In this document: positions 6,264 to 37,875 of the stretch, piece after piece
Position numbering within the stretch: the stretch's first letter is position 1
Layout of the letters: every line of letters begins with the position of its first letter
Assembly: GCF_037975245.1 (NCBI RefSeq)
Contig: NC_092570.1
Coordinates: 1,679,501 to 1,743,500, forward strand
From: Apostichopus japonicus
Lineage: Eukaryota; Echinodermata; Holothuroidea; Aspidochirotida; Stichopodidae
DNA: 64,000 nucleotides
Direction of reading: 5' to 3'
Position numbers and translations under genes: made by a program
Notes under the pieces: model-generated
What the model was told of the DNA's origin: nothing
The model's input: only the letters and a program-made list of their open reading frames with translations
Database searches by the model: none

Positions 6264-8492
6264 ATGGCATGCCCATCGCCTTGGAAAGACATCGCAGATA
6301 CATTCTTCGAATGTTCAATTTGTTTGGATCTGTTTAAAGAACCGAAACTATTACCATGTCTGCATAGATTCTGTAAACAATGCCTGAAACCTATATTAGA
6401 AGGACAGGCTGGGACATTTGAATGTCCTCTTTGTAAAGATGTCTGTAAAATACCAAACGATAGAATCGATGGATTCAAGACTGACTTCCATATGAAAAGT
6501 ATGCTGCAGTTTATTCAGCTACAGAAAACATTTGAAAACAAAGAAGAGAGAGAATGTATTGGTTGTGAAGAGAAGTTAAAGGTTACAGCGTACTGTTTTA
6601 TATGTAAAGGATTTCTTTGTGTTCAGTGTTATCAATTTCATTTGACCAAGAAGATGTTTGTCACACATCAGAAACACTTATTAGCCTTGAATGATCTTGA
6701 GGGGAAAAGTCTCACGCAAGAAAAACTTGCATCATTGATGGAAGCTCCTAGGTGCCATATTCACCCGGAATATATGGCTCAGTTGTGCTGTTGTACATGC
6801 GGAAACCTCCCAGTTTGTGTGACATGTACGTATGATGAACACAAAGGTCATGAACTTCGTGACGTCAGGAAAGTGGCGAACGACGAAAGGGAACACTTGA
6901 AGGAGATATTGGAAGAACTTGTAAAACGTAAAGATACTGTATTCAACATTGCTGATAAAATCAACAGAGTGAATAATGACATTCTGTCCATTGTCGCTGA
7001 AACTAAAGCAAAATGGAAAAAGCAGTACAAAGATCAGACCAGGGAGTTACAGAATGAAAAAGAGAAAGAAAAGAGAGAATTCAACACATTCAAAACAGGT
7101 CTCGAAGAAAGTACTCGGCACAAAATGAAAGAATTAGAAACAGAAATGGAAGAGAAAATTAGAAAAATAAGAGACGAGTACGACAGATTGATTAAAATTA
7201 AAATTAGGGAATCAAAAGAGAAAGAGGACACCAAAAGAAATGAAATAGGAAAAAGAGAATTGAAGATTGACGAAACAATGAACCGACTTGATGCGGTAAT
7301 GAATGAGAGAAATAAAACAATAGACGAACAACAGCAACGCAAGCTTAGAGAAACACAAAACTTATCAGATCTCTGTAATCAATGGGTCAATAAATTTGAA
7401 AATGTGTCTACTATATCTTCGAGTGTCCTTGCATCATGTAACCACTGGACAGACGCACAGTGTATTCCTGATATAAGAGCAGCCAGTGAACCTCTTGTTG
7501 AGGATATAATGAAAGATTTTCCTGAAATAGAATCTTTATCTGATATAACAATGGATGATTTACCAATATTGTGTATTGATAGAGTACATATATCGGTTAA
7601 TGCAGAATCTGTTGTTGATGTTGATGTGATCAAATCTCGTTGGTTTTGGTTAACTGGTATAACAAGTACTGGCTCTGGTAACATCGTCATCTCTGGGAGA
7701 TTATCACATGCCCATTCATTTATCACAGTCATAAACAGACAAGGACGTCAGATTCGTCATAACAAGATAGATAAAGGCAAAGGGAGCTCTTTTCAAACCT
7801 TTCGTCACTGTGCTGCTTTATCACGTGATAATATAGCTTCGGTTTGTGAATCCAATCAGGTTGTTGTTTATAATATTCAAAATGGGTCCTTTACTCAAAA
7901 TAACATCACGTCCCTCTTTGATGACATCAATGCGGGGGATGCGAAGTATGCGACTTGTATAACTACTGATACTAAACGTGGCCACATCATTGTAGGTACA
8001 TCACGAAAGATTGGATTGCTATTTATATTTGATGAAGAATTTAATTTCATTCGAGCTCTGAAGCTACCAGAGGTTATAAAATGGTCAAGAGATATCCTTT
8101 ATCATGAAGGCGTTCTGCTGATATGCGATGAAGAGAGTAGATGTGCATACGCTGTAACCATGGATACATCTAAAACAGAAGCAGAGTTACTTTACAAGCT
8201 TCCGAAACCAGATATTGACGGACTAACTTGGTATCCTTCGAGTATATGTAAAGACAGGGCAGGTTTTGTATACATCTTGTGGTCACAAACACAGTTTAGT
8301 ACTGGAAAATGTATAATCACACAGTACAGTCAAGATGGTCAGCAGTTGTTGACAACCAAACGGACAGAAGATAGAGTACATTGTATGACAACATTGATGA
8401 CAGAGGAGGGAGAGAAGCTACTTGTAGCATCATGGTCAGGAAAGATGCTTTGTTATGGTCTGGTGAGTATATCTCAGTGTTTCTTATTTTAA
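6264..8492 (+). CDS. TRIM-like RING/B-box/coiled-coil/propeller protein, copy 2
   Basis: The 742-residue protein is intact. The RING is a textbook C3HC4 with zinc ligands C17, C20, C32, H34, C37, C40, C54 and C57. B-box 1 spans about 98-135 (C98, C101, C111, C114, C119, C122, H126, H135), and B-box 2 spans about 164-196 (C164, H167, C176, C179, C185, C188, H193, H196). A charged coiled coil runs from about 204 to 385. A six-bladed beta-propeller with about 48 residues per blade fills 450-735. The family consists of E3 ubiquitin ligases that dimerise through the coiled coil and recognise targets through the C-terminal domain; here the target is unknown. No signal peptide or membrane segment is seen, so a cytosolic site is inferred. 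The start is fixed by conservation in five paralogues and by a splice acceptor 20 nt upstream. TRIM2/3/56/71-like database names are likely but would not imply orthology. Confidence 0.93.
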   Translation: MACPSPWKDIADTFFECSICLDLFKEPKLLPCLHRFCKQCLKPILEGQAGTFECPLCKDVCKIPNDRIDGFKTDFHMKSMLQFIQLQKTFENKEERECIGCEEKLKVTAYCFICKGFLCVQCYQFHLTKKMFVTHQKHLLALNDLEGKSLTQEKLASLMEAPRCHIHPEYMAQLCCCTCGNLPVCVTCTYDEHKGHELRDVRKVANDEREHLKEILEELVKRKDTVFNIADKINRVNNDILSIVAETKAKWKKQYKDQTRELQNEKEKEKREFNTFKTGLEESTRHKMKELETEMEEKIRKIRDEYDRLIKIKIRESKEKEDTKRNEIGKRELKIDETMNRLDAVMNERNKTIDEQQQRKLRETQNLSDLCNQWVNKFENVSTISSSVLASCNHWTDAQCIPDIRAASEPLVEDIMKDFPEIESLSDITMDDLPILCIDRVHISVNAESVVDVDVIKSRWFWLTGITSTGSGNIVISGRLSHAHSFITVINRQGRQIRHNKIDKGKGSSFQTFRHCAALSRDNIASVCESNQVVVYNIQNGSFTQNNITSLFDDINAGDAKYATCITTDTKRGHIIVGTSRKIGLLFIFDEEFNFIRALKLPEVIKWSRDILYHEGVLLICDEESRCAYAVTMDTSKTEAELLYKLPKPDIDGLTWYPSSICKDRAGFVYILWSQTQFSTGKCIITQYSQDGQQLLTTKRTEDRVHCMTTLMTEEGEKLLVASWSGKMLCYGLVSISQCFLF

Positions 8493-11400
8493 TACTACTA
8501 GATATCACAGGATACTCTGATGTAACGACATTGAAAGGGTACATTAAACTGGGACAATATCGCCAAGGATATTATCTTCATGTATTGACTTTATGTATGA
8601 CTAAATAGTGTGTTATATTAACAACTTTAAAGATAGTTTTCGATTGACTTTAGCTCAAGTAATAGTAGAAGTTATTTCCCAAACCCAATATACATGAAAC
8701 TGAAGTGCACACCTTGTTCACTATTTCCTATACGGAATCCTTAAAACGAAGATTAAAGAATTCTAAGGAGATCATGGTATTGTTTTTGACAAGACATCGC
8801 AATGTCTACTGAAGTTGATGTAAAAGAAATAAAACAACAACAAAAACAGAAATGTGAACAGAATATAGGCAAAAAGGAAAGAAGAAAAGAAAAGACAAGA
8901 AAAGAGCAGAAAAGAAGGGATTTGTTTGCTGAAAAACGTAACACAAACAGTCTACATCTAACATGACTTTTTTTTTAGGCCGCATTCTAAATGTACTTCA
9001 AACGTATAGAGAACTGGGTCAACGTTTGTAACTTTATAAATGTTGTTTCCAACAGATGCCAGAATAAAGTCAACCGCGAAAACATACATGAAAGAAAAAA
9101 ATATCCAGAGCATACACCAAACTGAATCGAATATCAAAGGCAGCCGATGAGGAGAGAATAATCAATATTTGAAGAAACAACTAGAAACTTTAAGATGAAA
9201 CAGATCCATTACCTTTATCTGATGAAATGAAGATACAGTTCCTGATGATTATCAACAGCCCCAACGAATAATAGTAAAGAGAAAAAGGTCTGTTTATATA
9301 AGATGGTGGTGATATTGTGAATTTCCGATGTCATAATTCCACTATAACCAATGTGTGATGTCACAATGCCACTAAAAAGTGACGTCTTTCATGTTATATT
9401 TATTTATTAAATAAAAGTATATGTAAATATAAGCCTATTGGTTGTTGTGAACGTCAAAGGTCATTTTGGGTCAATAGGGGTCAAATAGTGAAACCATGTA
9501 AACACGATATCTCAAGAAGAAAAGCTTGTACCAATCTCATATATAGTGATTAGAAGCAGCCTATTGTTTAGAGTGGTGGTCAAAGTTCGTTTGGGTTCAC
9601 TAGGGGTACAATTGTGAAAACCCGGGTAAACACGATATCTCAAGAAGGAGAGCTGGGACCAATCACATATTTCGTGTGAAGTACAACATTGAGTTGAAGA
9701 AGCCAATTAGTTTTTGTGGCGGTCAAAGGAAATTTGGAGTCACCAGAGGTCAAATTGTTGAAACCGTGTTTCATAATCTACCGTATCTCCAACCGACCAG
9801 CCTGTTACATAACATGTGCGTCACGCCTCATAATAATAGTAGAGGTTGTATGCAATTGGAAATTAGCAGATGGGCATCCGTAGATAGTACCAGAGAAAGT
9901 CGAACCAATCGCCATTTACTTAACCGTGTCGCTAACTGCATACGTCATTGCATTACAAAGGTGTCATGTTTATACATACAACTTTCATTGGAATCAACTA
10001 TACCGTTGTGAAACATACCTGTATTAAATATTAGTTCACGTTGTTGAGGTTTTCCTGTCGTATTTCGCAATTGTCGAGATTCAGTGCCAAACAAAAACTT
10101 CAAGTTGGGATGTAGTTACGTTGAAAAAAACGACCAGGCGCCGTTTATGGTTCGCTAGCTGCACGTGCATTATGTACGGGAAGTTTTCATGTGCGGAGAT
10201 TGATCACAAACTTCACGGAGCATTTAAAAACATACAGCGAAATCATCATTTAAAGTCTAAAATAACAATTAATTACAGGGAACAGTTTAAGCTTAAGAAG
10301 TACGTAACATGTTTCAAAGGCATTAATAAATATGCTGGGTTCATATGTTAAATTTTCAACCAATTAGAAAATGTTATTAAACATCACCACGGCTTGGTTA
10401 TGCACAGGCAACCCTTACACAGAAGAGTATAGTACTAGCCGCCCCGGTATAGACTATAAATATTGGTCATCCTCATCTGAGTAGGGTAAAATTGGGTTCG
10501 TTAACACAAACACGTGAAGAAAAAATGCTTCATGTCAGAATACCAATTCACTTGAGGCGGCCAAACATCTCCTACATTATTTCTTCAGGCATTACCCACA
10601 TGCCATCAGTCATAATTCGCCAAATATAAAATTAAAGGAGATTTCAGACAAGACAGTTTGCTGTTACCACTGCCATGATTTTTTGCAAAGATTTTCAGTT
10701 GCGATTGAAAGATAGATGCTCTTTCAACCTTAGATTTTCATTGCGTAAAAGATCGCTTTGATATAGGCAGTGTAATGGAGTAATATCAATGTGTTCGCAC
10801 ACCAATATGCAGCTTAAGCCAAGATAAATAATTGGGAAAATCTCCGAAGTCGCGCCAATCGAAGAAGCGGTTCATAGCAGGAGTGAGGTACTATATAGGC
10901 TAAGGACTTGCGCACACCTATAGCTACTGTATATAGCGTATGTTTAGTACTAGAGGATCCCTAATGTAACAGAAGCCAAGCTATCGTCGTAGGTACTTTT
11001 GAAAATGAATTATTTTTAATTGTTTGAGACACTATACAGTAGCCCAAGCTGCATATGTATGATTCTGCCACATGTTTAACTTTGTTCAACACTTACTTTG
11101 GTGGAAAAATGTTTAAAGTTCACACTGCATAGACACATAATTTTCAAATGTGCGAGTACGTAACACCATATATATGCCAATAGTGCCTGCTCTGTAGTTC
11201 ATAGAAGTATTAATGTTGTAGATCTGTACTATGGAGACTTGAACAGCAGTCATAGTGGCGAGTGAATTGTTCGTTTTGGCGAGAAGAGTTTTAGTCACGT
11301 TCGCCAAATAACTAGTACTTTAAGAAATATTTCAGTATCGAGGCCTGACAAAACTTTAAACATGATTTCTTATAATATAAATCATGGATAATTTTCATAC

Positions 11401-11761
11401 ATGGTAATGGATTTGCCATATTGAGTACAAGAATCTTGTTGCCTGTGAGGTCAAATCTCAATTGCGGTCACCAGACGTCAAACTTTGAAAAACATTTTAC
11501 ATGATATCTAACGATGGGAATCTTGGATACTTCTCATGCTATGGTGTGTGGATGCATCACATTGAGCACAAGACCACTATTGGTTTTGGTGGAGGTGTGT
11601 ATTGCCACGTAGAGTAGACTTATCTGTGTTTGCCTTGTCATAGTGTAAATTGTTCATCAAAGAAGTGGTTCGGACTATTTATATTGTGATAGCTATTTCT
11701 GGTTAACACATAGAAGTCTAGTGCAATGAAGTCATCGTAACCTCAATGCATGTTGCATTCC

Positions 11762-11875
11762 GGTTATTATTATTTTTATTTTTATAGTAATAATAGTTAT
11801 TATTATTGTTACTATTATTATTATTTTTATTTTTATTTTTATTTTTATTTTTATTATTATTATTATTATTATTAA
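11762..11875. repeat. (ATT)n-rich microsatellite
   Basis: Imperfect ATT/ATTTTT repeats. Shorter versions sit at the same place in units 4 (about 19584-19640) and 6 (about 33640-33710). Unit 5 lacks the block. Confidence 0.9.
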
Positions 11876-12362
11876 CCTCGGCTTATCAAATACCTTACTG
11901 TTACATTTATGTAGTACCATAGACAATATCTGATGTTTTTCGCTGTTTTTTTCCTCACTGTGCTTTGTTTTACTTGTGTGTGGGTGTTTATGTTCGTACA
12001 TAAGTGTGTGTATGCGTGTGTGTCTCTGTATTTGTTCGTTGGTAGGTGTGTGTGTGGGTCTTTGTATGTGTATGTACTTTTTTTTTGCGCGTGTGTAAGG
12101 GTGAGTCTTGTATTCATTGAAGGTTGTTTTTTCTGGATGTGTATACATATATTTCGGTATAAGAGGAGAAGAAGAAATACTCAATTCAGAATCAATTTTC
12201 GCATCATGTAAATAATTCCTTTGTATCATTCAGATGACATACCTATGTTGTTATCAGAACTCTAATTATAATCGATGTACCATATACATGTTTACTAATC
12301 GTGAATAAATGAGATGGAAGAAAAATTATTTTTTTTAATTTATTTTTTAATATTATTTTTTA

Positions 12363-12470
12363 TCATGATTATTATTATATATTTTTTATTATTATTATTA
12401 TTAGTAGTATTATTATTGTTATTATTATTAGTAGTATTATTATTGTTATTATTATTAGTAGTAGTATTGA
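12363..12470. repeat. (ATT)n microsatellite with AGTAGT interruptions
   Basis: ATT repeats punctuated by AGTAGT motifs. Homologous AT-rich blocks lie near 20110-20205, 26970-27045 and 34165-34275. Confidence 0.9.
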
Positions 12471-12802
12471 ATTGTGTGTATAGTTTGGGTGCGTGTACGC
12501 ACGGAATGTAGAAATAGGGCACTGCACTAATGCACCATTAAACAAGTTACGGGAGGGTGTAAGGTAATTGCTCAATACATTGACACCCAAATCAGCAACT
12601 GGGGATTTCCATTGTTATCGCGTGGTTTTGGAATTGCATCGGTACTTTGCGTCTCGTCTGTTGTATTTTCAACAACTGGAGAAAGTAGGATTCAAGTAAT
12701 TCTGATATTTCAACTTGAATTACAATAAGGCCTCAATACTCCATCGACTGAAAGCAAATAGCACAAGGTTAGTAACTATTCTGTTCTGCGATCGGTCTCT
12801 GT

Positions 12803-12850
12803 GTGCAATGCACTGATCTGTACACTAGTGTACAGATCAGTGGTTCAATG
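12803..12850. mobile_element. 32-bp perfect palindrome with 8-bp flanking repeat
   Basis: A perfect palindrome (12811-12842; half-site CACTGATCTGTACACT) is flanked by GTGCAATG on the left and GTTCAATG on the right. The unit 6 copy has GTTCAATG on both sides and unit 5 has a single GTTCAATG with no palindrome. This is the pattern of a tiny insertion with an 8-bp target-site duplication. An 8-bp duplication suits hAT or P-type elements, but the family is not determinable. Confidence 0.7.
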
Positions 12851-13250
12851 TATGAAGGAAGGTGCACGGCCATTTTAACCCGGAAGTATTGAATTGTGCA
12901 TGATTGGTTATAGCACTGAAGTACAGTGGATAAGTACGGTATTAACCACGAGCTTTTCTGCTCGTAGCAAATACATGGCATTAAGGACTTGTTAAGGACT
13001 ATAATGGTAGTTTTCGCAATGTTTATTTTTGATATAATGTACCAACCATATCAGTTCTGCTTGGGTGTTCTCGTGAAATCAAAGTCCAAAGTCAATTGTG
13101 TAAGTTCCGTGCGTTATATCCATTGTACATATACGTACAACGTACTGCGTATATTCTCATGTATTTCTTTCTTGGTCCGATTCGTAACAACTTAAGAAAG
13201 ATCAAATGCAGCTAGGTTGATACAAGGGAAAAGGTAAACATTAAAATAAG

Positions 13251-13850: not shown

Positions 13851-13870
13851 ATTAAATTTCCGAGACAAAA

Positions 13871-16096
13871 ATGGCCTGCCCATCGCCTTGGAAAGACATC
13901 GCAGATACATTCTTTGAATGTTCAATTTGTTTGGATCTGTTTAAAGAACCGAAACTATTACCATGTCTGCATAGATTCTGTAAACAATGTCTGGAACCTA
14001 TACTAGAAGGACAGACTGGGACATTTGAATGTCCTCTTTGTAAAGATGTCTGTAAAATACCAAACGATAGAATCGATGGATTCAAGACTGACTTCCATAT
14101 GAAAAGTATGCTGCAGTTTATTCAGCTACAGAAAACATTTGAAAACAAAGAAGAGAGAGAATGTATTGGCTGTGAAGAGAAGTTAAAGGTTACAGCGTAC
14201 TGTTTTATCTGTAACGAATGTCTTTGTGTTCAGTGTTATCAATTTCATTTGACCAAGAAGATATTTGTCAAACATCAGAAACACGTATTAGCTCTGAATG
14301 ATCTTGAGGGGAAAAGTCTCACGCAAGAAAAACTTGCATCATTGATGGAAGCTCCTAGGTGCCATATTCACCCGGAATATATGGCTCAGTTGTGTTGTTG
14401 TACATGCGGAAACCTCCCAGTTTGTGTGACATGTACTTATGATGAACACAAAGGTCATGAACTTCGTGACGTCAGGAAAGTGGCGAACGACGAAAGGGAA
14501 CACTTGAAAGAGATATTGGAAGAACTTGAAAAACGTAAAAATACTGTATTCAACATTGCTGATAAAATCAACAGAGTGAATACTGACGTTCTGTCCATTG
14601 TCGCTGAAACTAAAGCAAAATGGAAATCACAGTACGAAGATCAGACCAGGAAGTTACAGAATGAGAAAGAGAAAGAAAAGAGAGAATTCGACAGATTCAA
14701 AACAGTTCTTGAAGAAAGTACTCGACACAAAATGAGAGAATTAGAAACAGAAATGGAAGAGAAAATTAGAAAAATAAGAGACGAGTACGACAGATTGAGG
14801 AAAATCAAAATTAGGGAATTCAAACAGAAAGAGGACATCAAAAGAATTCAAATTGAAAACAGAGAATTAAAGATAAACGAAACAATGAGCCGACTTGATG
14901 CAGAAATGAATGAGAGAAATAAAACAATAGACGAAAAACAGCAACGCAAGCTTAGAGAAACACAAAACTTATCAGATCTCTGTAATCAATGGGTCAATAA
15001 ATTTGAAAATGTGTCTACTATATCTTCGAGTGTCCTTGAATCATATAACCACTGGACAGACGCACAGTGTATTCCTGATATAAGAGCAGCCAGTGAACCT
15101 CTTGTTGAGGATATAATGAAAGATTTTCCTGAAATAGAATCTTTATCTGATATAACAATGGATGATTTACCAATATTGTGTATTGATAGAGTAAGTACAT
15201 CGGATAATGTAGAATCTGTTGTTTATGTTAATGTGATCAAAACTGAATGGTTTTGGTTAACTGGTATAACAAGTACTGGCTCTGGTAACATCGTCGTCTC
15301 TGGGAGATTATCATCGGACCATTCATTTATCACAGTCATAAACAGACAAGGACGTCAGATTCGTCATAACAAGATAGATAAAGGCAAAGGGGGCTCTTTT
15401 CAACACTTTCGCCACTGTGCTGCTTTATCACATGATACGATAGCTTCGGTTTGTGAATCCAATCAGGTTGTTGTTTATAATATTCAAGATGGTTCCTTTA
15501 CTCAAAATAACATCACGTCCCTACTTGATGACATCAAAACGGTGGATAGGAAGTATGCGACTTGTATAACTACTGATACTAAACGTGGCCACATCATTGT
15601 AGGTACATCTATTGGATCGCTACTCATATTTGATGAAGAATTGAATTTCATTCGAGCTCTGCAGTTGCCAGAGGTTATAAACTGGCAAAGAGATATCCTT
15701 TATCATGAAGGTGTTCTGCTGATATGCGATTTAGTTAGTGGATGTGCATGCGCTGTAACCATGGATACATCTAAAACAGAAGCAGAGTTATTATACAAGC
15801 TTCCAAAACCAGATATTGACGGACTGACTTGGAAGCCTTCGAGTATATGTAAAGACAGGGCAGGTTTTGTATACATCTTGTGGTCACAAACACAGTATGG
15901 TACTGGAAAATGTTTTATCACACAGTACAGTCAAGATGGTCAGCATTTGTTGACAACCAAACGGACAGACAATGCAGCAGGGTGTATGACAACATTGATG
16001 ACAGAGGAGGGAGAGAAGCTACTTGTAGCTACAAAACGGTCGGGAAGGATGCTTTGTTATTGTCTGGTGAGTATATCTCAGTGTTCCTTACTTTAG
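13871..16096 (+). CDS. TRIM-like RING/B-box/coiled-coil/propeller protein, copy 3
   Basis: This intact 741-residue paralogue has the same architecture and the same zinc ligands as copy 2. B-box 1 differs at two residues near position 115 (CNECLC instead of CKGFLC), which adds a cysteine. The coiled coil carries private changes (REFKQKEDIKRIQIENREL). The propeller differs from the others at loop positions, including YVNVIKTEWFW, GTSIGSLLI and LTWKPSS. The C-terminus ends SQCSLL rather than SQCFLF. The acceptor-like CAG found downstream of the stop in the other copies is changed to CTG here, so any use of the conserved GTGAGT near the stop would differ in this gene. E3 ligase function is inferred from domains only. 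Confidence 0.93.
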   Translation: MACPSPWKDIADTFFECSICLDLFKEPKLLPCLHRFCKQCLEPILEGQTGTFECPLCKDVCKIPNDRIDGFKTDFHMKSMLQFIQLQKTFENKEERECIGCEEKLKVTAYCFICNECLCVQCYQFHLTKKIFVKHQKHVLALNDLEGKSLTQEKLASLMEAPRCHIHPEYMAQLCCCTCGNLPVCVTCTYDEHKGHELRDVRKVANDEREHLKEILEELEKRKNTVFNIADKINRVNTDVLSIVAETKAKWKSQYEDQTRKLQNEKEKEKREFDRFKTVLEESTRHKMRELETEMEEKIRKIRDEYDRLRKIKIREFKQKEDIKRIQIENRELKINETMSRLDAEMNERNKTIDEKQQRKLRETQNLSDLCNQWVNKFENVSTISSSVLESYNHWTDAQCIPDIRAASEPLVEDIMKDFPEIESLSDITMDDLPILCIDRVSTSDNVESVVYVNVIKTEWFWLTGITSTGSGNIVVSGRLSSDHSFITVINRQGRQIRHNKIDKGKGGSFQHFRHCAALSHDTIASVCESNQVVVYNIQDGSFTQNNITSLLDDIKTVDRKYATCITTDTKRGHIIVGTSIGSLLIFDEELNFIRALQLPEVINWQRDILYHEGVLLICDLVSGCACAVTMDTSKTEAELLYKLPKPDIDGLTWKPSSICKDRAGFVYILWSQTQYGTGKCFITQYSQDGQHLLTTKRTDNAAGCMTTLMTEEGEKLLVATKRSGRMLCYCLVSISQCSLL

Positions 16097-21372: not shown

Positions 21373-21392
21373 CTTAAATTTCCGAGACAAAA

Positions 21393-23625
21393 ATGGCATG
21401 CCCATCGCCATGGAAGGACATCGCAGATACATTCTTCGAATGTTCAATTTGTTTGGATCTGTTTAAAGAACCGAAACTATTACCATGTCTGCATAGATTC
21501 TGTAAACAATGTCTGGAACCTATACTAGAAGGACAGGCTGGGACATTTGAATGTCCTCTTTGTAAAGATGTCTGTAAAATACCAAACGATAGAATCGATG
21601 GATTCAAGACTGACTTCCATATGAAAAGTATGCTGCAGTTTATTCAGCTACAGAAAACATTTGAAAACAAAGAAGAGAGAGAATGTATTGGCTGTGAAGA
21701 GAAGTTAAAGGTTACAGCGTACTGTTTTATGTGTAAAGAATTTCTTTGTGTTCAGTGTTATCAATTTCATTTGACCAAGAAGATGTTTGTCACACATCGG
21801 TTACACTTATTAGCCTTGAATGATCTTGAGGGCAAAAGTCTCACACAAGAAAAACTTGCATCATTGATGGAAGCTCCTAGGTGCCATATTCACCCGGAAC
21901 ATATGGCTCAGTTGTGTTGTTGTACATGCGGAAACCTCCCAGTTTGTGTGACATGTACGTATGATGAACACAAAGGTCATGAACTTCGTGACGTCAGGAA
22001 AGTGGCGAACGACGAAAGGGAACAGTTGAAGGAGATATTGGAAGAACTTGTAAAACGTAAAGATACCGTATTCAACTTTGCTGATAAAATCAAAAGAGTG
22101 AATAATGATGTTCTGTCCAGTGTCGCTGAAACTAAAGCAAAATGGAAATCACAGTACGAAGATCAGACCAGGGAGTTACAGAATGAGAAAGAGAAAGAAA
22201 AGAGAGAATTCAACAGATTCAAAGCAGTTCTTGAAGAAAGGACTCGAAAAGAGTTGAAAGAATTAGAAACAGAAATGGAAGAGAAAATTAGAAAAATAAG
22301 AGACGAGTACGACAGAATGAAGAAAATCAAAATTAGGGAATCAAAAGAGAAAGAGGACACCAAAAGAAATGAAACAGGAAAAAGAGAATTCAAGATTAAC
22401 GAAACAATGAACCGACTTGATGCGGTAATGAATCAGAGAAATAAAACAATAGACGAACAACAGCAACGCAAGCTTAGAGAAACACAAAACTTATCAGATC
22501 TCTGTAAACAATGGGTCAATAAATTTGAAAATTTGTCTACTATATCTTCGAGTGTCCTTGAATCATATAACCACTGGACAGACGCACAGTGTATTCCTGA
22601 TATAAGAGCAGCGAGTGAACCTCTGGTTGAGGATATAATGAAAGATTTTCCTGAAATAGAATCTTTATCTGATATAACAATGGATGATTTACCAATATTG
22701 TGTATTGATAGAGTACATATATCGGATAATGTAGAATCTGTTGTTGATGTTGATGTGATCAAAATCTGTTTGGTGTTCGTTAACTGGTATAACAAGTACT
22801 GGCTCTGGTAACATCGTCATCTCTGGGAGATTATCATTGGACCAATCATTTATCACAGTCACAAACAGACAAGGACGTCAGATTCGTCATAACAAGATAC
22901 ATAAAGGCAAAGGGAGGGATCTTCAACCCTCTCGTCACTGTGCTGCTTTATCACGTGATAAGATAGCTTCGGTTTGTGAATCAAATCAGGTTGTTGTTTA
23001 TAATATTCAAGATGGGTCCTTTACTCAAAATAACATCACGTCCCTCTTTGATGACATCAAAACTGTGGATAGAAAGTATGCGACTTGTATAACTACTGAT
23101 ACTTTACGTGGCCACATCATTGTAGGTACATCAAGAAATTCTGGATTGCTATTTATATTTGATGAAGAATTTCATTTCATTCGAGCTCTGAAGCTGCCAG
23201 AGGTTATAAAATGGTCGAGAGATATCCTTTATCATAAAGGCATTCTGCTGATATGCGATGAAAAGAGTAGATGTGCATACGCTGTAACCCTGGATACATC
23301 TAAAACAGAAGCAGAGTTACTATACGAGCTTCCGAAACCAGATATTGACGGACTGACTTGGTATCCTTCGAGTATATGTAAAGACAGGGCAGGTTTTGTA
23401 TACATCTTGTGGTCAGATAGACAGTTAGGTAGTGGAAACGATATGATCACACAGTACAGTCAAGATGGTCAGCAGTTGTTGACAACCAAACGGACAGAAG
23501 ATAGAGCAGGGTGTATGACAACATTGATGACAGAGGAGGGAGAGAAGCTACTTGTAGCTACATCATATGCAGGAAAGATGTTTTGTTATGGTCTGGTGAG
23601 TATATCTCAGTGTTTCTTATTTTAA
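21393..23625 (+). pseudogene. TRIM-like copy 4 with a 1-nt frameshift
   Basis: The first 472 codons give RING, both B-boxes, coiled coil and linker, intact and in frame with the paralogues. Near 22761-22764 an AAAA run replaces AAA. The extra base shifts the frame at the first propeller strand and a stop follows at 22811. The remaining propeller is uninterrupted in the next frame down to 23625 and ends with the usual SQCFLF. A single homopolymer-associated insertion is therefore the only visible lesion. It may be a true pseudogene allele, a sequencing error, or a gene now making a propeller-less TRIM, which could still dimerise with intact paralogues. The shifted half keeps the family's conserved strands, so the lesion is recent if real. 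Confidence 0.8.
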
Positions 23626-28332: not shown

Positions 28333-28352
28333 CTTAAATTTCCGAAACAAAA

Positions 28353-30575
28353 ATGGCATGCCCTTCTCCTTGGAAAGACATCGCAGATACATTCTTCGAA
28401 TGTTCAATTTGTTTGGATCTGTTTAAAGAACCGAAACTCTTACCATGTCTGCATAGATTCTGTAAACAATGTCTGGAACCTATACTAGAAGAACAGGCTG
28501 ATGGGACATTTGAATGTCCTCTTTGTAAAGATGTCTGTAAAATACCAAACGATAGAATCGATGGATTCAAGACTGACTTCCATATGAAAAGTATGCTGCA
28601 GTTTATTCAGCTACAGAAAACATTTGAAAACAAAGAAGAGAGAGAATGTATTGGCTGTGAAGAGAAGTTAAAGGTTACAGCGTACTGTTTTATGTGTAAA
28701 GAATTCCTTTGTGTTCAGTGTTATCAATTTCATTTGACCAAGAAGATATTTGTCAAACATCAGAAACACGTATTAGCTCTGAATGATCTTGAGGGGAAAA
28801 GTCTCACAAAAGAAAAACTTGCATCATTGATGGAAGCTCCTAGGTGCCATATTCACCCCGAACACAAGGCTAAGTTGTGTTGTTGTACTTGTGGAAACCT
28901 CCCAGTCTGTTTGACATGTACGTATGATGAACACAAAGGTCATGAACTTCGTGACGTCAGAAAAGTGGCGAACGACGAAAGAGAACACTTGAAGGAGATA
29001 TTGGAAGAACTTGTAAAACGTAAAGATGCTGTATTCAATTTTGCTGATAAAATCAAAAGAGTGAATAATGACGTTCTGTCCATTGTCGCTGAAACTAAAG
29101 CAAAATGGAAATCACAGTACGAAGATCAGACCAGGAAGTTACAGAATAAGAAAGAGGAAGAAAAGAGAGAATTCGACAGATTCAAAACAGGTCTTGAAGA
29201 AAGTACTCAACAGATCATGAAAGAATTAGAAACAGAAATGGAAGAGAAAATTAGAAAAATAAGAGACGAGTACGACAGATTGAAGAAAATCAAAATAAGG
29301 GAATCAAAAGAGGAAGAGGACAACAAAAGAAATGAAATAGAAAATAGAGAATTAAAGATTGACGAAACAATTAACCGACTTGATGCAGAAATGAATGAGA
29401 GAAATAAAACAATAGACGAACAACAGCAACGCAAGCTTAGAGAAACACAAAACTTATCAAATCTCTGTAATCAATGGGTCAATAAATTTGAAAATGTGTC
29501 TACTTTATCTTCGAGTGTCCTTGAATCATATAACCACTGGACAGACGCACAGTGTATTCCTGATATAAGAGCAGCGAGTGAACTTTTGGTTGAGGATATA
29601 ATGAAAGATTTTCCTGAAAAAGAATCTTTCTCTGATATAACAATTGATGATTTACCAATATTGTGTATTGATAGAGTACATATATCGGATAATGTAGAAT
29701 CTGTTGTTCATGTTGATGTGATCAAAGCTAAATGGTTTTGGTTAACTGGTATAACAAGTACTGGCTCTGGTAACATCGTCATCTCTGGAAGATTATCATC
29801 TGACCATTCATTTATCACAGTCATAAACAAACAAGGACGTCAGATTCGTCATAACAAGATAGATAAAGTTAAAGGGCGCTCTCTTCAACACTTTCGTCAC
29901 TGTGCTGCTTTATCACGTGATAAGATAGCTTCGGTTTGTGAATCCAACCAGGTTGTTGTTTATAATACTCAAGATGGGTCCTTCACTCAAAATAACATCA
30001 CGTCCCTCTTTGATGACATCAAAACAGTGGATAGAAAGTATGCGACTTGTATAACTACTGATACTTTACGTGGCCACATCATTGTAGGTACAAATAGAAA
30101 TACTGGATTGGTATTTATATTTGATGAAGAATTGAATTTCATTCGAGGTCTGAAGCTACCAGAGGTTATAAAATGGTCAAGAGATATCCTTTATCATAAA
30201 GGCGTTCTGCTGATATGCGATTCAGAGAGTAGATGTGCATGCGCTGTAACCATGGATACATCTAAAACAGAAGCAGAGTTACTATACGAGCTTCCGGAAC
30301 CAGATATTGACGGACTGACTTGGTGTCCTTACAGTATATGTGCAGACAGGGCAGGATATGTCTACATCTTGTGGCATAGTGCTGGAACAAAGTGTATCAT
30401 CACACAGTACAGTCAAGATGGTCAGCAGTTGTTGACAACCAAACGGACAGAATGTACAGCACGGTGTATGACAACATTGATGACAGAGGAGGGAGAGAAG
30501 CTACTTGTAGCATCATGGTCAGGAAAGATGCTTTGTTATGGTCTGGTGAGTTTATCTCAGTGTTTCTTATTTTAA
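28353..30575 (+). CDS. TRIM-like RING/B-box/coiled-coil/propeller protein, copy 5
   Basis: Intact 740-residue paralogue. A 3-nt insertion in the RING loop (EEQADGTFEC instead of EGQAGTFEC) moves the last two RING cysteines to 55 and 58 but keeps all ligands. B-box 2 has HKAKLCC where others have HMAQLCC or YMAQLCC. The coiled coil carries the QNKKEEEKREF variant also seen in copy 1. The propeller has private loop residues (KVKGRSLQ, GTNRNTGLV, WCPYSICADRAGYV, LWHSAGTK) and is two residues shorter in the fifth-blade loop than copies 2 and 6. Same inferred E3 ligase role; target unknown. Confidence 0.93.
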   Translation: MACPSPWKDIADTFFECSICLDLFKEPKLLPCLHRFCKQCLEPILEEQADGTFECPLCKDVCKIPNDRIDGFKTDFHMKSMLQFIQLQKTFENKEERECIGCEEKLKVTAYCFMCKEFLCVQCYQFHLTKKIFVKHQKHVLALNDLEGKSLTKEKLASLMEAPRCHIHPEHKAKLCCCTCGNLPVCLTCTYDEHKGHELRDVRKVANDEREHLKEILEELVKRKDAVFNFADKIKRVNNDVLSIVAETKAKWKSQYEDQTRKLQNKKEEEKREFDRFKTGLEESTQQIMKELETEMEEKIRKIRDEYDRLKKIKIRESKEEEDNKRNEIENRELKIDETINRLDAEMNERNKTIDEQQQRKLRETQNLSNLCNQWVNKFENVSTLSSSVLESYNHWTDAQCIPDIRAASELLVEDIMKDFPEKESFSDITIDDLPILCIDRVHISDNVESVVHVDVIKAKWFWLTGITSTGSGNIVISGRLSSDHSFITVINKQGRQIRHNKIDKVKGRSLQHFRHCAALSRDKIASVCESNQVVVYNTQDGSFTQNNITSLFDDIKTVDRKYATCITTDTLRGHIIVGTNRNTGLVFIFDEELNFIRGLKLPEVIKWSRDILYHKGVLLICDSESRCACAVTMDTSKTEAELLYELPEPDIDGLTWCPYSICADRAGYVYILWHSAGTKCIITQYSQDGQQLLTTKRTECTARCMTTLMTEEGEKLLVASWSGKMLCYGLVSLSQCFLF

Positions 30576-33500
30576 TATTACTAGATATTACAGGATAATC
30601 TGGTGTAACGAAATTGAAAGGGTACATTATACTGGGACAATATCGCCAATATCTTAATGTATTGACTTTATGTATGACCAAATAGTGTGCTATATTAATA
30701 ACTTTAAAGATAGTTTGCGATTGACTTTAGCTCAAGTAATAGTAGAAGTTAATTCCTAAACCCAATATACATGAAACTAAAGTGCACATCTTGTTCACTA
30801 TTTCCTATACGGAATCGCAAAAGAATTCTAACGAGATCATGGTATTGTTGTTGACAAGACATCGCAATGCCAACTTAAGTTGATTTAAAAGAAATAAAAC
30901 AACAACAAAAACAGAAATGTGAACAGAATATAGGCAAAAGGGAAAAAGAAAAGCCAAGAAAAGAACAGAAAAGAACTTAAAGAAGGGATTTGTTTGCTGA
31001 AAAACGTAACAAAAACAATCTACATCCAACATAACCTTTTTTAGCATTCTCAATGTACTTCAAACGTGTAGAGAATTGGATCAACGTTTGTAACTTTATA
31101 AATGTTCTTTCCAACAGATGCCAGAATAAAGTCAACCGCGAAAACATACATGGAAGAAACGAACATCCAGAGCATACATTACACTGAATCGAATATCAAG
31201 GGCAGCCGATGAGGAGAGAATAAGCAATATTTGCAGAAACAACTAGAAACTTTAAGATGAAACGGATCCAGTATCTTATGAAATGAAGATACAGTTCCTG
31301 ATGATTATCAACAGCCCCGACGAACAATAGTAATAAGAAATAAGACTGTTTATATAAGATGGTGGTTATATTGTGATTCTCTGATGTCATAATCCCACTA
31401 TAACCAATGTGTGATGTCACAATGCTACTAAAGAGTGACGTCTTTCATGTTATTGTAATTATATTTATTGAATAAATGTATATGTAAATATTAGGACTGT
31501 AGTACTCGCGTCGGAGATCAAATTCCATAAAACTAAAAAATTCTATCCAAGATGTAAAAATGAATTAATTGAAAGTATCACAACTATTTGTTTTATTGCA
31601 AGACCGTGTTTATTTTGTGTGTGCGTGTGACGCCTTGCTTATAAACACGATATCTCAAGAATTGAAGCTTGGACTATCTCAAATTTCGTGTGTAGGAGAA
31701 CCTCCATTTAGGAGTAAGAGCCAATTATTTTTGGTGGAGGTCATATGTCATTTGAGGTCACCGGTGGTCAAATTGTGAATCCTTGTAAACACGATATCCC
31801 AAGAAAAGAAGCTTTGATCAATATCATATTTCGTGTGTATAGAGTAACACATGCAGTAGAATAAGCCTATTGGTTGTTGTGAACGTCAAATGTCATTTGG
31901 GGTCAATAAGGGTCAAATAGTGAAACCCTTTAGACACGATATCTCAAGAAGAAAAGCTTGTACCAATCTCATATATAGTGTGAATGAGAACAACATTGAT
32001 TAAAAGCAGCCTATTGTTTAGAGTGGCGGTCAAAGTTCGTTTGGGTTCACTATAGGGGTACAATTGTGAAAACCCGGGTAAACACGATATCTCAAGACGG
32101 AGAGCTGGGACCAATCACATATTTCGTGTGAAGTACAAAATTGAGTAGAAGAAGCCAATTAGTTTTGTGGCGGTCAAAGGAAATTTGGAGTCACCAGATG
32201 TCAAATTTTTGAAACCGTGTTTCATAATCTACCGTATCTCCAACCGACCAGCCTATTAGATAACATATGCGTTACGTCTCATCATAAAAGAGGTTGTTTG
32301 TAATTGAAAAATAGCTAATGAGAAAGTCGAACCAATCGCCATTTACTTAACCGTGTCGCTAACTGCATACGTCTTGCATTACAAAGGTGTGAAAGGGAAA
32401 AAATGCTTCATGTCAGAATACCAATTCACCTGAGGTGGCCAAACATCTCCTACATTATTTCTTCAGGCATTTGCATTTGCCATCAGTCATAATTCGCCAA
32501 ATATACAATTAAAGGAGTTTTGAGACAAGTTTGCTGTATACCACTGCCATGATTTTTTGCAAAGATTTTCAGTTGCGATTGAAAGATAGATGCTCTTTCA
32601 ACCTTAGATTTTCATTGTGTAAAAGATCGCTTTGATTTAGGCAGTGTAATGGAGTAATATCAATATTTTTGCACACCAATATGCAGCTTAATCCATCATA
32701 AATAATTGGGAAAATCTTCGAAGTCGCGCCAATCGAAGATGTGGTTCATAGTAAGAGTGAGGTACTGTATAGGCTTAGGACTTGCGCACACCTATAACTA
32801 CTGTATATAGCGTATGTTTAGTACTAGACGATCCCTAATGTAACAGAAGCCAAGCTATCGTCGTAGGTACTTTTGAAAATGGTTTATTTTTAATTGTTTG
32901 AGACACTACAGTAGCCAAGCTGCGTGTTTATGATTCTCCGACATTTTTAACTTTGTTCAACACTTACTTTTGGCGAAAAAAAATATTTAAAGTTCACACT
33001 GCATAGAAACATAATTTTCCAATGTGCGAGTACGTAACACCATATATCTGCCTAGGTGCCTAATCTGTAGTTCATAGAAAGTATTAATGTTGTAGATCTG
33101 TACTATGGAGACTTGAACAACAGTCATAGTGGCGAGTGAATTTTTCGTTTTGGCGAGAAGAGTTTTAGTCACGTTCGCCAAATAACTAGTACTTTAAAAA
33201 ACATTTCAGTATCGAAGCCTGACAAACCTTTAAAACATGATTTCTCATAATATAAATCATGGATAATTTTCATACATGGTATATGGATTTGGCATATTGA
33301 GTACAAGAATCTTGTTGCCAAATCATAATTGTCAAATCTCAATTGCGGTCACCAGACGTCAAACTTTGAAAACCATTCACATGATATCTAACGATGGGAA
33401 TCGTGGATATTTCTCATACTTAGCGTGTGGATGCATCACATTGAGTACCACTATTTGTCTTGGTGGACGAGTGTAATGCCACGTACAGAAAACTGGTCTG

Positions 33501-35026
33501 TGTTTTGCCTTGCCATAGTGTAAATTGTTCATCAAAGAAGTGGTTCGGACTATTTATATTGTGATAGCTATTTCTGTTTAACAAGTAGAAGTCTAGTGCA
33601 ATGAAGTCATCGAAACCTCAATGCATTTTGAATTCCGGTTATTATTATTTTTATTTTTATAATAATAATAAGCATAATTATGATTATGATTATTATTATT
33701 TTTAATATGAATAACCTCTGCTTATCAAATACCTTACTGTTACATTTATGTAGTAGCATAGACAATCTCTGATGTTTTACGCTGTTTTATTCCTCACTGT
33801 GCTTTGTTTTACTTGTGTGGGGGTGTTTATGTTCGTACTAACGTGTTTGTATGCGTGTGTGTCTCTGTATTTGTATGTGTGTAGGTGTGTGTGTGGGTCT
33901 TTGTATGTGTATGTATATGTACTATTTTGCGCGTGTGCAAGCGTGGGTTTTGTATTCACTGAGGGTTTGTTTTTCTGGATGTGTATCAAATATTTCGGTA
34001 TAAGAGGAGAAGAAGAAATACTCAATTCAGAATCAATTTTCGCATCATGTAAATAATTCCTTTGTATCATTCAGATGCATACCTATGTTGTTATCGGAAC
34101 TCTAAATATAATCAATGTACCATATACATGTTTAATAATCGTGAATAAATCAGATGGAAAAAATATTATTATTATTATTTTTTTTGAATACTATTTTTTA
34201 TCATGATTATTATTTCATTTTTATGATTATTATTATATATTTTTATTATTATTATTATTAGAAGTAGTAGTATTGTCGGAATGTAGAAAAATAGCTCTGC
34301 ACTAAAGCACCATTAAACAAGTTACGGGAGGGTGTAAGGTAATTGCTCAATACATTGACACCCAAATCAGCAACTGGGGATTTCCATTACTATCGCGACT
34401 TGCATCGGTACTTTGCGTCTCGTCTGTTGTATTTCAACAACTGGATAAAGTAGGATTGAAGTTATTCTGATATTTCAACTTGAATTACAATAAGGCCTCA
34501 ATACTCCATCGACTGGAAGCAAATAGCACAAGGTTAGAACTATTCTGTTCTGCGATCGGTCTCTGTGTTCAATGCACTGATCTGTACACTAGTGTACAGA
34601 TCAGTGGTTCAATGTATGAAGGAAGGTGCACGGCCATTTTAACCCGGAAGTATTGAATGGTGCATGATTGGTTATAACACTGAAGTACAGTGGATAATTA
34701 CGGTATTAACCACCAGCTTTTCTGCTCGTAGCAAATACATGGACTTGTTAAGGAATTGTTAAGGACTTTAGTAATGGTAGTTTTCGCAATGTTTACTTGT
34801 GATATAATATACCAACCATATCAGTTCTGCGTGGGTGTTCTCGTGATATCAAAGTCCAAACTCAATTGTATAAGTTCCGTGCATTATATCCATTGTACAT
34901 ATACGTACAACTTACTGCGTATATTCTCATGTTGTTCCTTCTTGGTCCGATTTGTAACAACTTAAGAAAGATCAAATGCAGCTAGGCTGATACAAGACTA
35001 AGGGAAAAGGTAAACATTAAAATAAG
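30576..35026 (+). repeat. Spacer of unit 6
   Basis: Four copies of the ~145-bp repeat lie near 31645, 31788, 31934 and 32082. About 550 bp of the conserved block is missing at 32385, where the homologue of unit 3 position 9975 joins that of 10525. TG/ATT microsatellites (33640-34275) and the palindrome insertion (34567-34614) follow, then the upstream region of copy 6. No supported gene. Confidence 0.75.
34567..34614. mobile_element. 32-bp perfect palindrome with perfect 8-bp TSD
   Basis: The palindrome at 34575-34606 is identical to that at 12811-12842. It is flanked on both sides by GTTCAATG, the exact sequence present once at the empty site in unit 5 (27332-27339). Confidence 0.75.
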
Positions 35027-35626
35027 GTAAGTCTTGGAATGTAAAACGGTGATAATTGCAAACATGTTTCCTTAGTTCATCTGTATTTTGTTATATCATT
35101 AAGTGGGAAATAATATAACCAACTTACATTGGTGATTAGTATCATCGTTAAGCTTGTATATCAATTGCCATTGGTAGTGCTAGGGCTCAAAAAGTCCTAA
35201 CAGAACAGATATCGAGATCATTGCCATGATATCGAATTCATTAAACCCCAGAGTTACTGACTGTTTGAGTAAACTTCAAATGATCATGTATTGTCATTTC
35301 AGGTCAACTAGTTCTTGTATCAAGGTAAAGTTCACTAAGGGCATGGTGTGCTGTTGGTGGTATCGTTCCAGCACTATAAACGTCTATCAGGTAGTATTTG
35401 TCATCAGCTACGCCCGAACAGTTCCATTATGCCAGTGATCGAGTTGCACCAATATCTCGGCTTCTGTGTTTGTATGGAGCAATAATACCCGTCGTACCGT
35501 AGGTTACAAAGAACAGTTCTTGAATTCAGTTCAATAAAGGTCTTTCTAAATTAATTTTCTTATCCTCAATTTGTTACTCCAGATTATGATATTCATAAAC
35601 ACTGATCTTAATAACTTGCTTTACAG
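35027..35626 (+). other. Putative 5'-UTR intron of copy 6
   Basis: Donor AATAAG|GTAAGT and acceptor TTGCTTTACAG|CTTAAA, 20 nt before the start codon. Confidence 0.5.
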
Positions 35627-35646
35627 CTTAAATTTCCGAGACAAAA

Positions 35647-37875
35647 ATGGCCTGCCCGTCGCCTTGGAAAGACATGGCAGATACATTCTTCGAATGTTCA
35701 ATTTGTTTGGATCTGTTTAAAGAACCGAAACTATTACCATGTCTGCATAGATTCTGTAAACAATGTCTGGAACCTATATTAGAAGGACAGGCTGGAACAT
35801 TTGAATGTCCTCTTTGTAAAGATGTCTGTAAAATACCAAACGATAGAATCGATGGATTCAAGACTGACTTCCATATGAAAAGTATGCTGCAGTTTGTTCA
35901 GCTACAGAAAACATTTGAAAACAATGAAGAGAGAGAATGTATTGGCTGTGAAGAGGAGTTAAAGGTTACAGCGTACTGTTTTATGTGTAAAGAATTTCTT
36001 TGTGTTCAGTGTTATCAATTTCATTTGACCAAGAAGATATTTGTCAAACATCAGAAACACGTATTAGCTCTGAATGATCTTGAGGGGAAAAGTCTCACAC
36101 AAGAAAAACTTGCATCATTGATGGAAGCTCCTAGGTGCCATATTCACCCGGAACACATGGCTCAGTTGTGTTGTTGTACATGCGGAAACCTCCCAGTTTG
36201 TGTGACATGTACGTATGAGGAACACAAAGGTCATGAACTTCGTGACGTCAGGAAAGTGGCGAACGACGAAAGGGAACACTTGAAGGAGATATTGGAAGAA
36301 CTTGTAAAACGTAAAGATACTGTATACAACATTGCTGATAAACTCAACAGAGTTAATAATGACGTTCTGTCCATTGTCGCTGAAACTAAAGTAAAATGGA
36401 AATCACAGTACGAAGATCAGACCAGGAAGTTACAGAATGAGAAAGAGAAAGAAAAGAGAGAATTCAACAGATTCAAAACAGGTCTTGAAGAAAGTACTCG
36501 AAACAAAATGAAAGAATTAGAAACAGAAATGGAAGAGAAAATTAGAAAAATAAGAGACGAGTACGACAGAATGAAGAAAATCAAAGTTAGGGAATCTAAA
36601 GAGAAAGAGGACACCAAACGAAATGAAATAGAAAATAGAGAATTAAAGATTGACGAAACAATGAAAAAACTTGATGCGGTAATGAATGAGAGAAATAAAT
36701 CAATAGACGAGCAACAGCAACGCAAGCTTAGAGAAACACAAAACTTATCAGATCTTTGTAATCAATGGGTCAATAAATTTGAAAATTTGTCTACTATATC
36801 TTCGAGTGTCCTTGAATCATATAACCACTGGACAGACGCACAGTGTATTCCTGATATAAGAGCAGCGAGTGAACCTCTTGTTGAGGATATAATGAAAGAT
36901 TTTCCAGAAATAGAATCTTTATCTGATATAACAATGGATGATTTACCAATATTGTCTATTGATAAAGTACATATATCGGATAATGTAGAATCTGTTGTTG
37001 ATGCTGATGTGATCAGAGATAAATGGTTTTGGTTATCTGGTATAACAAGTACTGGCTCTGGTAACATCGTCATTTCTGGGAGATTATCATTTGACCATTC
37101 ATTCATCACAGTCATAAACAAACAAGGACGTCAGATTAGTCATAACAAGATAGATGAAGGCAAACGGATTCGTCTTCCCTTTCGTCACTGTGCTGCTTTA
37201 TCACGTGATAAGATAGCTTCGGTTTGTGAATCCAATCAGCTTGGTGTTTATGATATTCGTGATGGGTCCTTTACTCAAAATAACATCACGTCCCTCTTTG
37301 ATGACTTCGAAACGGTGGATGGGAAGTATGCGACTTGTATAACTACTGATCCAATAAGTGGCAACATCATTGTAGGTACATCACGAAAGATTGGATTGCT
37401 ATTTACATTTGATGAAGACTTGAATTTCATTCGAGCTCTGAAGCTGCCAGAGGTTATAAAATGGTCAAGAGATATCCTTTACCATGAAGGCGTTCTGCTG
37501 ATATGCGATACAGAGAGTAGATGTGCATACGCTGTTACCATTGATATATCTAAAACAGAAGTAGAGTTACTATACGAGCTTCCGAAACCAGATATTGACG
37601 GACTGACTTGGTATCCTTGGAGTATATGTAAAGACAGGGCAGGCTTTGTATACATCTTGTGGTCAGAAGAACAGGGTAGTACTACTAAACGTATCATCAC
37701 ACAGTACAGTCAAGATGGTCAGCAGTTGTTGACAACCAAACGGACAGAAGACAGAGTAAGGTGTATGACAACATTGATGACAAAGGAGGGAGAGAAGCTA
37801 CTTGTAGCTACATCGTGGTCAGGAAAGATGTTTTGTTATGGTCTGGTGAGTATATCTCAGTGTTTCTTATTTTAA
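35647..37875 (+). CDS. TRIM-like RING/B-box/coiled-coil/propeller protein, copy 6
   Basis: Intact 742-residue paralogue, the last gene of the array. RING and B-box ligands match copy 2. The propeller is the most divergent of the set in its loops (VDADVIRDKWFW, DEGKRIRLPFRHC, LGVYDIRDGSF, DPISGNIIVG, WYPWSICK, SEEQGSTTK), while the strands between them are unchanged. The coiled coil has its own variant (ETMKKLDAV). Cytosolic E3 ligase activity is inferred from the C3HC4 RING; nothing in the sequence identifies the partner. Confidence 0.93.
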   Translation: MACPSPWKDMADTFFECSICLDLFKEPKLLPCLHRFCKQCLEPILEGQAGTFECPLCKDVCKIPNDRIDGFKTDFHMKSMLQFVQLQKTFENNEERECIGCEEELKVTAYCFMCKEFLCVQCYQFHLTKKIFVKHQKHVLALNDLEGKSLTQEKLASLMEAPRCHIHPEHMAQLCCCTCGNLPVCVTCTYEEHKGHELRDVRKVANDEREHLKEILEELVKRKDTVYNIADKLNRVNNDVLSIVAETKVKWKSQYEDQTRKLQNEKEKEKREFNRFKTGLEESTRNKMKELETEMEEKIRKIRDEYDRMKKIKVRESKEKEDTKRNEIENRELKIDETMKKLDAVMNERNKSIDEQQQRKLRETQNLSDLCNQWVNKFENLSTISSSVLESYNHWTDAQCIPDIRAASEPLVEDIMKDFPEIESLSDITMDDLPILSIDKVHISDNVESVVDADVIRDKWFWLSGITSTGSGNIVISGRLSFDHSFITVINKQGRQISHNKIDEGKRIRLPFRHCAALSRDKIASVCESNQLGVYDIRDGSFTQNNITSLFDDFETVDGKYATCITTDPISGNIIVGTSRKIGLLFTFDEDLNFIRALKLPEVIKWSRDILYHEGVLLICDTESRCAYAVTIDISKTEVELLYELPKPDIDGLTWYPWSICKDRAGFVYILWSEEQGSTTKRIITQYSQDGQQLLTTKRTEDRVRCMTTLMTKEGEKLLVATSWSGKMFCYGLVSISQCFLF

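Follow-up and report, generated by a model that had tools for sequence, protein, structure and literature searches.

How does a gene family keep one end of its proteins almost constant while the other end changes from copy to copy, and what might the changing end be for? The question is raised by a stretch of 64,000 nucleotides from the sea cucumber Apostichopus japonicus (NC_092570.1, positions 1,679,501 to 1,743,500; the window below means this whole stretch). It lies on the sequence we call C10 and carries six tandem copies of a TRIM gene encoding a RING, B-boxes, a coiled coil and a propeller, all on the forward strand and spaced ~7-7.6 kb apart. We consider it probable that the copies belong to a TRIM family in which the RING and B-boxes are conserved while selection acts on the face of the predicted propeller formed by its D-A and B-C loops (the top loops), likely a surface for binding multiple targets.

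The difference between the two ends can be read from the window itself. In pairwise counts over the six copies, the ratio of nonsynonymous to synonymous change (dN/dS) rises from 0.11 in the RING through 0.26 in the B-boxes, 0.55 in the coiled coil and 0.62 in the linker to 1.05 in the propeller. This agrees with a first-pass annotation of this DNA, which had described an array of paralogues with a near-constant RING and a variable propeller. Its count of six paralogues was right as to tandem copies; copies 2, 3, 5 and 6 are intact open reading frames (ORFs), and copies 1 and 4 are frameshifted.

Selection on individual sites was assessed with our own FUBAR-like codon model, using segment trees, in three groups of paralogues from across the genome: A (n=19 sequences), B1 (n=24) and B2 (n=13). 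By identity to copy 2, subfamily A stands at 77-92%, subfamily B at 38-42% and five further members at 30-34%; identity between the B1 and B2 groups of subfamily B is ~49-54% (P0036 against C17 proteins), and that of group A to B1 and B2 is ~39%. The tests left out five divergent members (L027, L028, L039, L047 and L051), 14 deep B members (B3), the near-identical twins L023, L025 and L048, the broken L011, L013 and copy 1/L016, and the RING-scan loci L001-L008. In the propeller, the likelihood gain for a beta>alpha class was 67.8 in A, 68.4 in B1 and 24.6 in B2; in the same order the gains were 0.3, 6.0 and 0.1 in the RING, 2.3, 4.9 and 1.0 in the B-boxes and 7.7, 11.6 and 8.9 in the coiled coil. 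Null simulations of the A propeller reached a maximum gain of 10.1 over 12 runs, with 0-7 sites. Sites above 0.9 numbered 47 in A (33 in the propeller), 46 in B1 (32) and 21 in B2 (17). When each blade was given a tree of its own and columns were free of gaps, the gains were 53.6 (A), 58.9 (B1), 18.8 (B2) and 12.3 for the C10-only array; the null maxima were 8.9 in B1 (n=10), 7.1 in B2 (n=12) and 7.8 in the C10-only array (n=20). Chance variation is ruled out by these null simulations.

Placed on an AlphaFold model, the two series of variable loops are the D-A and B-C loops, which share one face of the meander propeller. Setting aside three B1 sites and one B2 site without an assignable face, selected sites fall in this half of the propeller in 31 of 33 cases in A, 29 of 29 in B1 and 16 of 16 in B2, and bottom loops hold 1/51, 0/49 and 0/49 selected sites in the three groups. 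The idea that a single propeller face is diversifying is thereby upheld, and a scatter of variable sites over both faces is rejected by the model mapping and by counts from per-blade trees. For every position in the two patch series that the first-pass annotation had picked out, the patch near 533 that it had called weak included, one group or more has a selected site no further than two residues away; the 606 patch stood up in B1 and B2, with no selected site in A (Table 1).

The same positions recur as selected sites in different groups. Exact selected sites common to A and B1 number 12 of the 30 in each (p 5.1e-6; 0/283 circular shifts), those common to B1 and B2 number 10 (p 2.8e-8; 0/278), and A and B2 share 6 (p 0.0028; 3/280). 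In B1 the nonsynonymous rate is most strongly autocorrelated at lag 49 (0.50, with 0 of 2000 block shuffles as high). The autocorrelation at that lag is weaker in A (0.28; 37/2000) and B2 (0.27; 30/2000), where the highest lag is the half-period near 23-24. Against the proposed blade periodicity of ~48 residues, a period of 49 residues is clear in B1 and weaker in the other two groups.

Family size was gauged from a RING scan and 80 fetched regions. The scan, which scored 150 of 421 candidates, found clusters on C1, C2, C9, C10, C17 and C20. The regions yielded 73 full-length family ORFs, three broken ones (L011, L013 and L016) and four genes with another C-terminal part (L078-L081); they were picked mainly for long open frames, so 73/80 is no measure of the rate of intactness. 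The last four, which are the C9 members fetched (21.7 and 31.6 Mb), are open TRIM genes too, and they align with copy 2 up to a point between residues 222 and 273. Upstream of the window, C10 holds seven further family copies (L009-L015), among them the broken L011 and L013. A profile search that scored the best 7991 candidates by shared words returned at least 112 proteins at E up to 1e-20, 79 from A. japonicus and 19 from Holothuria leucospilota; TRIM56 or TRIM56-like is the source name of 18 of the 19 Holothuria relatives and of one A. japonicus protein (P0107). Among the Holothuria proteins (17 of 19 aligned, 15 in pairs; 36 pairs above 45% identity), amino acids differ most in the B-C (0.65) and D-A loops (0.46); the corresponding values are 0.35 for the coiled coil, 0.34 for C-D loops, 0.30 for strands, 0.24 for A-B loops and 0.18 for the RING region.

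The conserved end has the make-up of a ubiquitin ligase. The N-terminal RING matches Pfam zf-C3HC4 at 1.4e-10 to 2.3e-10 in all four copies tested, and its C3HC4 zinc ligands are conserved in 73 of 73 aligned members (copies 2 to 6, 14 A loci and 54 B loci). Because every aligned member keeps these ligands, the sequences suggest a working ligase, and the conserved ubiquitin-ligase chassis of the first-pass annotation stands. The B-box family PF00643 scores above its cut-off in two of the four copies and below it in two (23.8 and 20.2 versus 24.1 bits), matching the second box alone in copy 2 (23.8 bits); the ligand pattern is present in 70/73 aligned members for the first box and 73/73 for the second. 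Long helices follow the B-boxes in the AlphaFold model (residues 201-298 and 304-390), as expected of a TRIM coiled coil. The C-terminal part is predicted to fold as a six-bladed NHL-type propeller. Because NHL repeats (PF01436) gave no match up to E 0.1 in the four copies tested, we class the predicted propeller as NHL-like, as in TRIM56, rather than as a sequence-defined member of the TRIM-NHL group (subfamily C, class VII). Its identity to solved NHL domains is just 12-16%; the best fold matches include the Brat-RNA and Lin41-RNA complexes. The B30.2/SPRY domain found no match in the same four copies, which carry the propeller in its place. The five best chains in the PDB are from TRIM2, TRIM3 and TRIM56, matched over the RING.

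The intact copies share nearly all their words with separate A. japonicus proteins listed by NCBI: 182/184 for copy 2 and P0001, 182/184 for copy 3 and P0004, 181/183 for copy 5 and P0003, and 182/184 for copy 6 and P0005. Copy 2 and P0001 are identical except at the extreme C-terminal end. As the listed proteins and the open frames of the intact copies end differently, the last few residues of the open frame are probably spliced out in the mRNA. Copy 4 has no protein of its own among the 114 fetched, its best match being P0001 with 101/184 words. A short A-run with one A too many shifts its frame, and the remaining gene is open; copy 4 is a pseudogene of very recent origin, or else the sequence contains an error here.

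The C10 copies have also exchanged sequence. Among ten of them, site incompatibility grows with distance (PHI-like test; 0/500 permutations as low). L009, one of the upstream copies, follows copy 2 through blades 1-4 and copy 4/L014 through blade 5, and L012 matches the frameshifted copy 1 at 0.97-0.99 in blades 3-6 and other copies in blades 1-2. The C10 copies are mosaic, and the exchange, which may have run in either direction, involves frameshifted copies too.

Such exchange violates the single-tree assumption of the codon tests, and it is one of several points that count against selection on the top face. Some of them can be assembled into an alternative in which the top loops are exposed and tolerant of change, and gene conversion produces a false signal of selection in tree-based tests. 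In the six window copies the top loops have a dN of 0.203 and a dS of 0.179, giving a pooled dN/dS of 1.14 (dN>dS in 70% of bootstraps). The dS is raised relative to the bottom loops (0.080), path counting at multiply changed codons inflating it. The expected clustering of dN/dS above 1 on one face was found, site by site, in the genome-wide paralogues; in the six copies alone the loop ratio (~1.1) is not convincingly above 1, and the genome-wide set is needed. Noncoding flanks of the copies differ on average by 0.155 in the upstream 1.2 kb and 0.148 in the first 1.5 kb downstream; top-loop dN exceeds this divergence, yet its bootstrap range (0.147-0.277) touches the flank values. Twins within the C10 array place their replacements elsewhere: 7 of 7 between copy 5 and L010 (~74 kb apart) are in the coiled coil, the propellers being identical, and 0 of 12 between copy 6 and L015 (~45 kb apart) are in top loops. 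Outside the propeller lie 14/47, 14/46 and 4/21 of the sites above 0.9 in A, B1 and B2, and one coiled-coil likelihood ratio test (LRT) slightly exceeds the highest propeller null. The LRT of the C10-only array is modest. Per-blade trees place sites in the top and bottom halves at 29/4 (A), 50/10 (B1), 10/0 (B2) and 36/8 (C10-only), raising the calls to 62 in B1 and 47 in the C10-only array, an increase that probably comes from noisy short trees. Synonymous rates next to the patches are somewhat elevated in A (1.07 versus 0.85, p 0.02) and B1 (1.08 versus 0.89, p 0.06), not in B2; together with the higher pooled dS, this may reflect a mild local mutation effect. A strong hypermutation hotspot limited to the patches is rejected by the same rates, slightly raised in two groups and unchanged in the third. 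We nevertheless regard relaxed constraint with exchange as an unlikely explanation of the whole pattern. Bottom loops are loops too, and almost none of their sites is selected; the per-blade LRTs beat their null simulations in B1, B2 and the C10-only array; and the same positions recur across groups that are 39-50% identical.

If the face is indeed selected, its targets need not be microbial, or even proteins. Selected sites in group A use Y and W at 2.3-2.6 times whole-propeller usage, favour R and contain fewer D and I, a composition more typical of protein binding. Mean net charge of the top loops is -2.1 in A, -0.1 in B1, -0.4 in B2 and -0.7 in B3, with a range of -13 to +7 in B1, and these values reject a constant electropositive RNA face. 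The Y/W enrichment and the spread of charge fit varied, probably protein, ligands better than a single RNA surface. They make it rather improbable that the face is an RNA-binding surface like those of Brat, Lin41 and Mei-P26, with loops diversifying for endogenous or viral RNAs, despite the RNA complexes among the fold matches and reports of RNA binding by the top surface of NHL domains (PMC9070667) and of viral RNA binding by the NHL-like domain of TRIM56 (PMC11768893). One-face diversification could also serve self- or allorecognition, gamete interaction or the control of genome parasites. Fungal allorecognition genes are described as diversifying on one propeller face (PMC1805685), and the window holds nothing seen that links the array to infection. 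We think such a role unlikely, given that diversified TRIM families are tied to antiviral immunity (PMC2657112) and that ultraviolet B (UVB) stress raises TRIM genes, together with NLR genes, in sea urchin coelomocytes (PMC13043383), neither being direct evidence for this array. That the copies stem from duplicated haplotypes or assembly errors, as near-identical pairs on C17 and the two frameshifted window copies might hint, is very improbable: the assembly is described as built from HiFi and Hi-C data (PMC10344927), the window copies are several per cent apart with diverged flanks, and four of the six match separate listed proteins. The C17 pairs (L018/L023, L022/L048 and L024/L025; 11.1-11.6 Mb) are widely separated, which suggests a recent large segmental duplication or a haplotype retained in the assembly.

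Selection on the recognition end of a TRIM protein has precedents. In the antiviral protein TRIM5alpha, positive selection acts on positions of the recognition domain; this is a B30.2 domain, selected mostly between species, and there is no large array. TRIM5alpha is named alongside the finTRIMs of teleosts, a large clustered family (84 genes in zebrafish) with near-identical RING and B-boxes and a positively selected recognition end (PMC2657112, van der Aa et al. 2009). The finTRIM recognition end is B30.2, whereas the sea cucumber copies carry a propeller; the family works like finTRIM and is not finTRIM, the likeness being functional only. TRIM56 and the TRIM-NHL proteins are few, conserved genes. 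With TRIM56, TRIM2/3/71, Brat, Thin and Mei-P26 the family shares a C-terminal six-bladed NHL-type or NHL-like propeller, here predicted. TRIM56 is described as lacking clear NHL repeats and acting in antiviral immunity (PMC11768893), and has been assigned to subfamily C together with the NHL TRIMs (PMC3503706). Unlike these proteins, the sea cucumber family has dozens of paralogues, uninterrupted long ORFs and one diversifying face. The fungal HET-D/HET-E proteins exchange WD40 repeats within a protein as well and are not known to carry a RING ligase. Like the sea cucumber family, these WD-repeat allorecognition genes are reported to encode propeller-type repeats, each bearing positively selected residues on its interaction surface, and to exchange sequence among family members (Paoletti et al. 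2007, PMC1805685). Among echinoderms, TRIM genes have also multiplied in a sea urchin, with 140 annotated and UVB induction in coelomocytes; the TRIM passages of that paper name TRIM45, 71, 33 and 56 types and contain no result of one-face selection (PMC13043383).

Table 1. Positions of the array features in the window, with residues and sites in copy 2 numbering
Feature	Position	Strand	Remarks
Copy 1	3..1562	+	3' part; remainder before window start; frameshift just upstream of window
Copy 2	6264..8492	+	Intact 742-aa ORF, RING-B-box-B-box-coiled coil-propeller; NCBI-listed P0001
Copy 3	13871..16096	+	Intact 741-aa ORF; NCBI-listed P0004
Copy 4	21393..23625	+	Frameshift in A-run near 22755-22765; downstream open in next frame
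Copy 5	28353..30575	+	Intact 740-aa ORF; NCBI-listed P0003; near-identical to upstream L010
Copy 6	35647..37875	+	Intact 742-aa ORF; NCBI-listed P0005; near-identical to upstream L015
Copy 2 RING region	6264..6548	+	Residues 1-95; Pfam PF00097; strongly conserved across window copies
Copy 2 B-boxes	6549..6863	+	Residues 96-200; approximate boundaries; ligand pattern
Copy 2 coiled coil and helical linker	6864..7553	+	Residues 201-430; AlphaFold helices 201-298, 304-390, 394-416
Copy 2 six-bladed propeller	7569..8489	+	Residues 436-742; NHL-type fold, predicted
Blade 1 D-A patch	7635..7643	+	458-460 selected in A; 460 also in B1, B2
Blade 1 B-C site	7707..7709	+	482 selected in A, B1
Blade 2 D-A patch	7773..7802	+	504-513 selected in A, B1, B2
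Blade 2 B-C patch	7848..7862	+	529-533: 529 in B1, B2; 533 in A
Blade 3 D-A patch	7929..7955	+	556-564 selected in A, B1
Blade 3 B-C patch	8007..8018	+	582-585: 583, 585 in A; 582 in B2
Blade 4 D-A patch	8079..8090	+	606-609: 606, 607, 609 in B1; 609 in B2; none in A
Blade 4 B-C patch	8130..8144	+	623-627 selected in A, B1, B2
Blade 5 D-A patch	8223..8240	+	654-659 selected in A, B1, B2
Blade 5 B-C patch	8283..8312	+	674-683 selected in A, B1, B2; indels; mosaic switch in upstream L009
Blade 6 D-A patch	8361..8381	+	700-706 selected in A, B1, B2
Blade 6 B-C patch	8430..8438	+	723-725: 724 in A; 724, 725 and inserted column in B1; inserted column in B2

Two other ORFs of the window lie on the reverse strand. 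An ORF at 43553-44464 encodes a neuropeptide precursor with repeated GYSPFMFGKR, FKSPFMFGKR and related units, presumably an F-type SALMFamide precursor as in other sea cucumbers. The ORF at 50285-51559 combines reverse transcriptase and GIY-YIG domains, which we take to be the make-up of a Penelope-like element.

Returning to selection on the D-A/B-C face, we interpret the family as probable inherited sensors that together cover many different targets, probably microbial ones, because the RING end is conserved while amino-acid change is favoured in the loops of one face. By analogy with finTRIMs and TRIM56, and with fungal HET-D/E for the principle of a single diversifying propeller face, we infer a germline recognition repertoire whose role is most likely in innate immunity. 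In the mechanism we propose, the RING/B-box chassis would be kept while the D-A and B-C loops of one predicted propeller face diversify by selection. The diversified face would bind many different targets, and the RING would ubiquitinate the bound target or signal, possibly as a defence against viruses or microbes inside the cell. New loop combinations for selection to retain would come from tandem duplication and from exchange among the copies, frameshifted ones included. A bolder version, which we offer tentatively and hold to be possible rather than probable, is a germline antibody-like repertoire of ubiquitin ligases, with the D-A/B-C face as 'paratope', the arrays as a loop bank and blades swapped by gene conversion. 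If true, this would be an intracellular immune receptor set of an undescribed kind.

The sea cucumber is not known to have adaptive immunity. A. japonicus also has aquaculture value (PMC10344927), and a defined loop set is now offered for testing in it. A literature search over titles and abstract openings, which took in few subscription journals or preprints, returned no earlier description of a one-face diversifying TRIM propeller family among the matches listed. When searched for the term TRIM, a Chiridota genome paper had no passage on TRIM genes and a Vibrio-challenge transcriptome paper had only words like 'trimmed'. Among TRIM proteins, diversified recognition ends are known from B30.2 domains. 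The family described here evolves in the same manner on a predicted NHL-type propeller; we see this in three groups within the A. japonicus genome and, for protein sequences, in a second genus, Holothuria. If this is true, TRIM proteins would have been made into recognition repertoires on more than one occasion, using different domains for binding.
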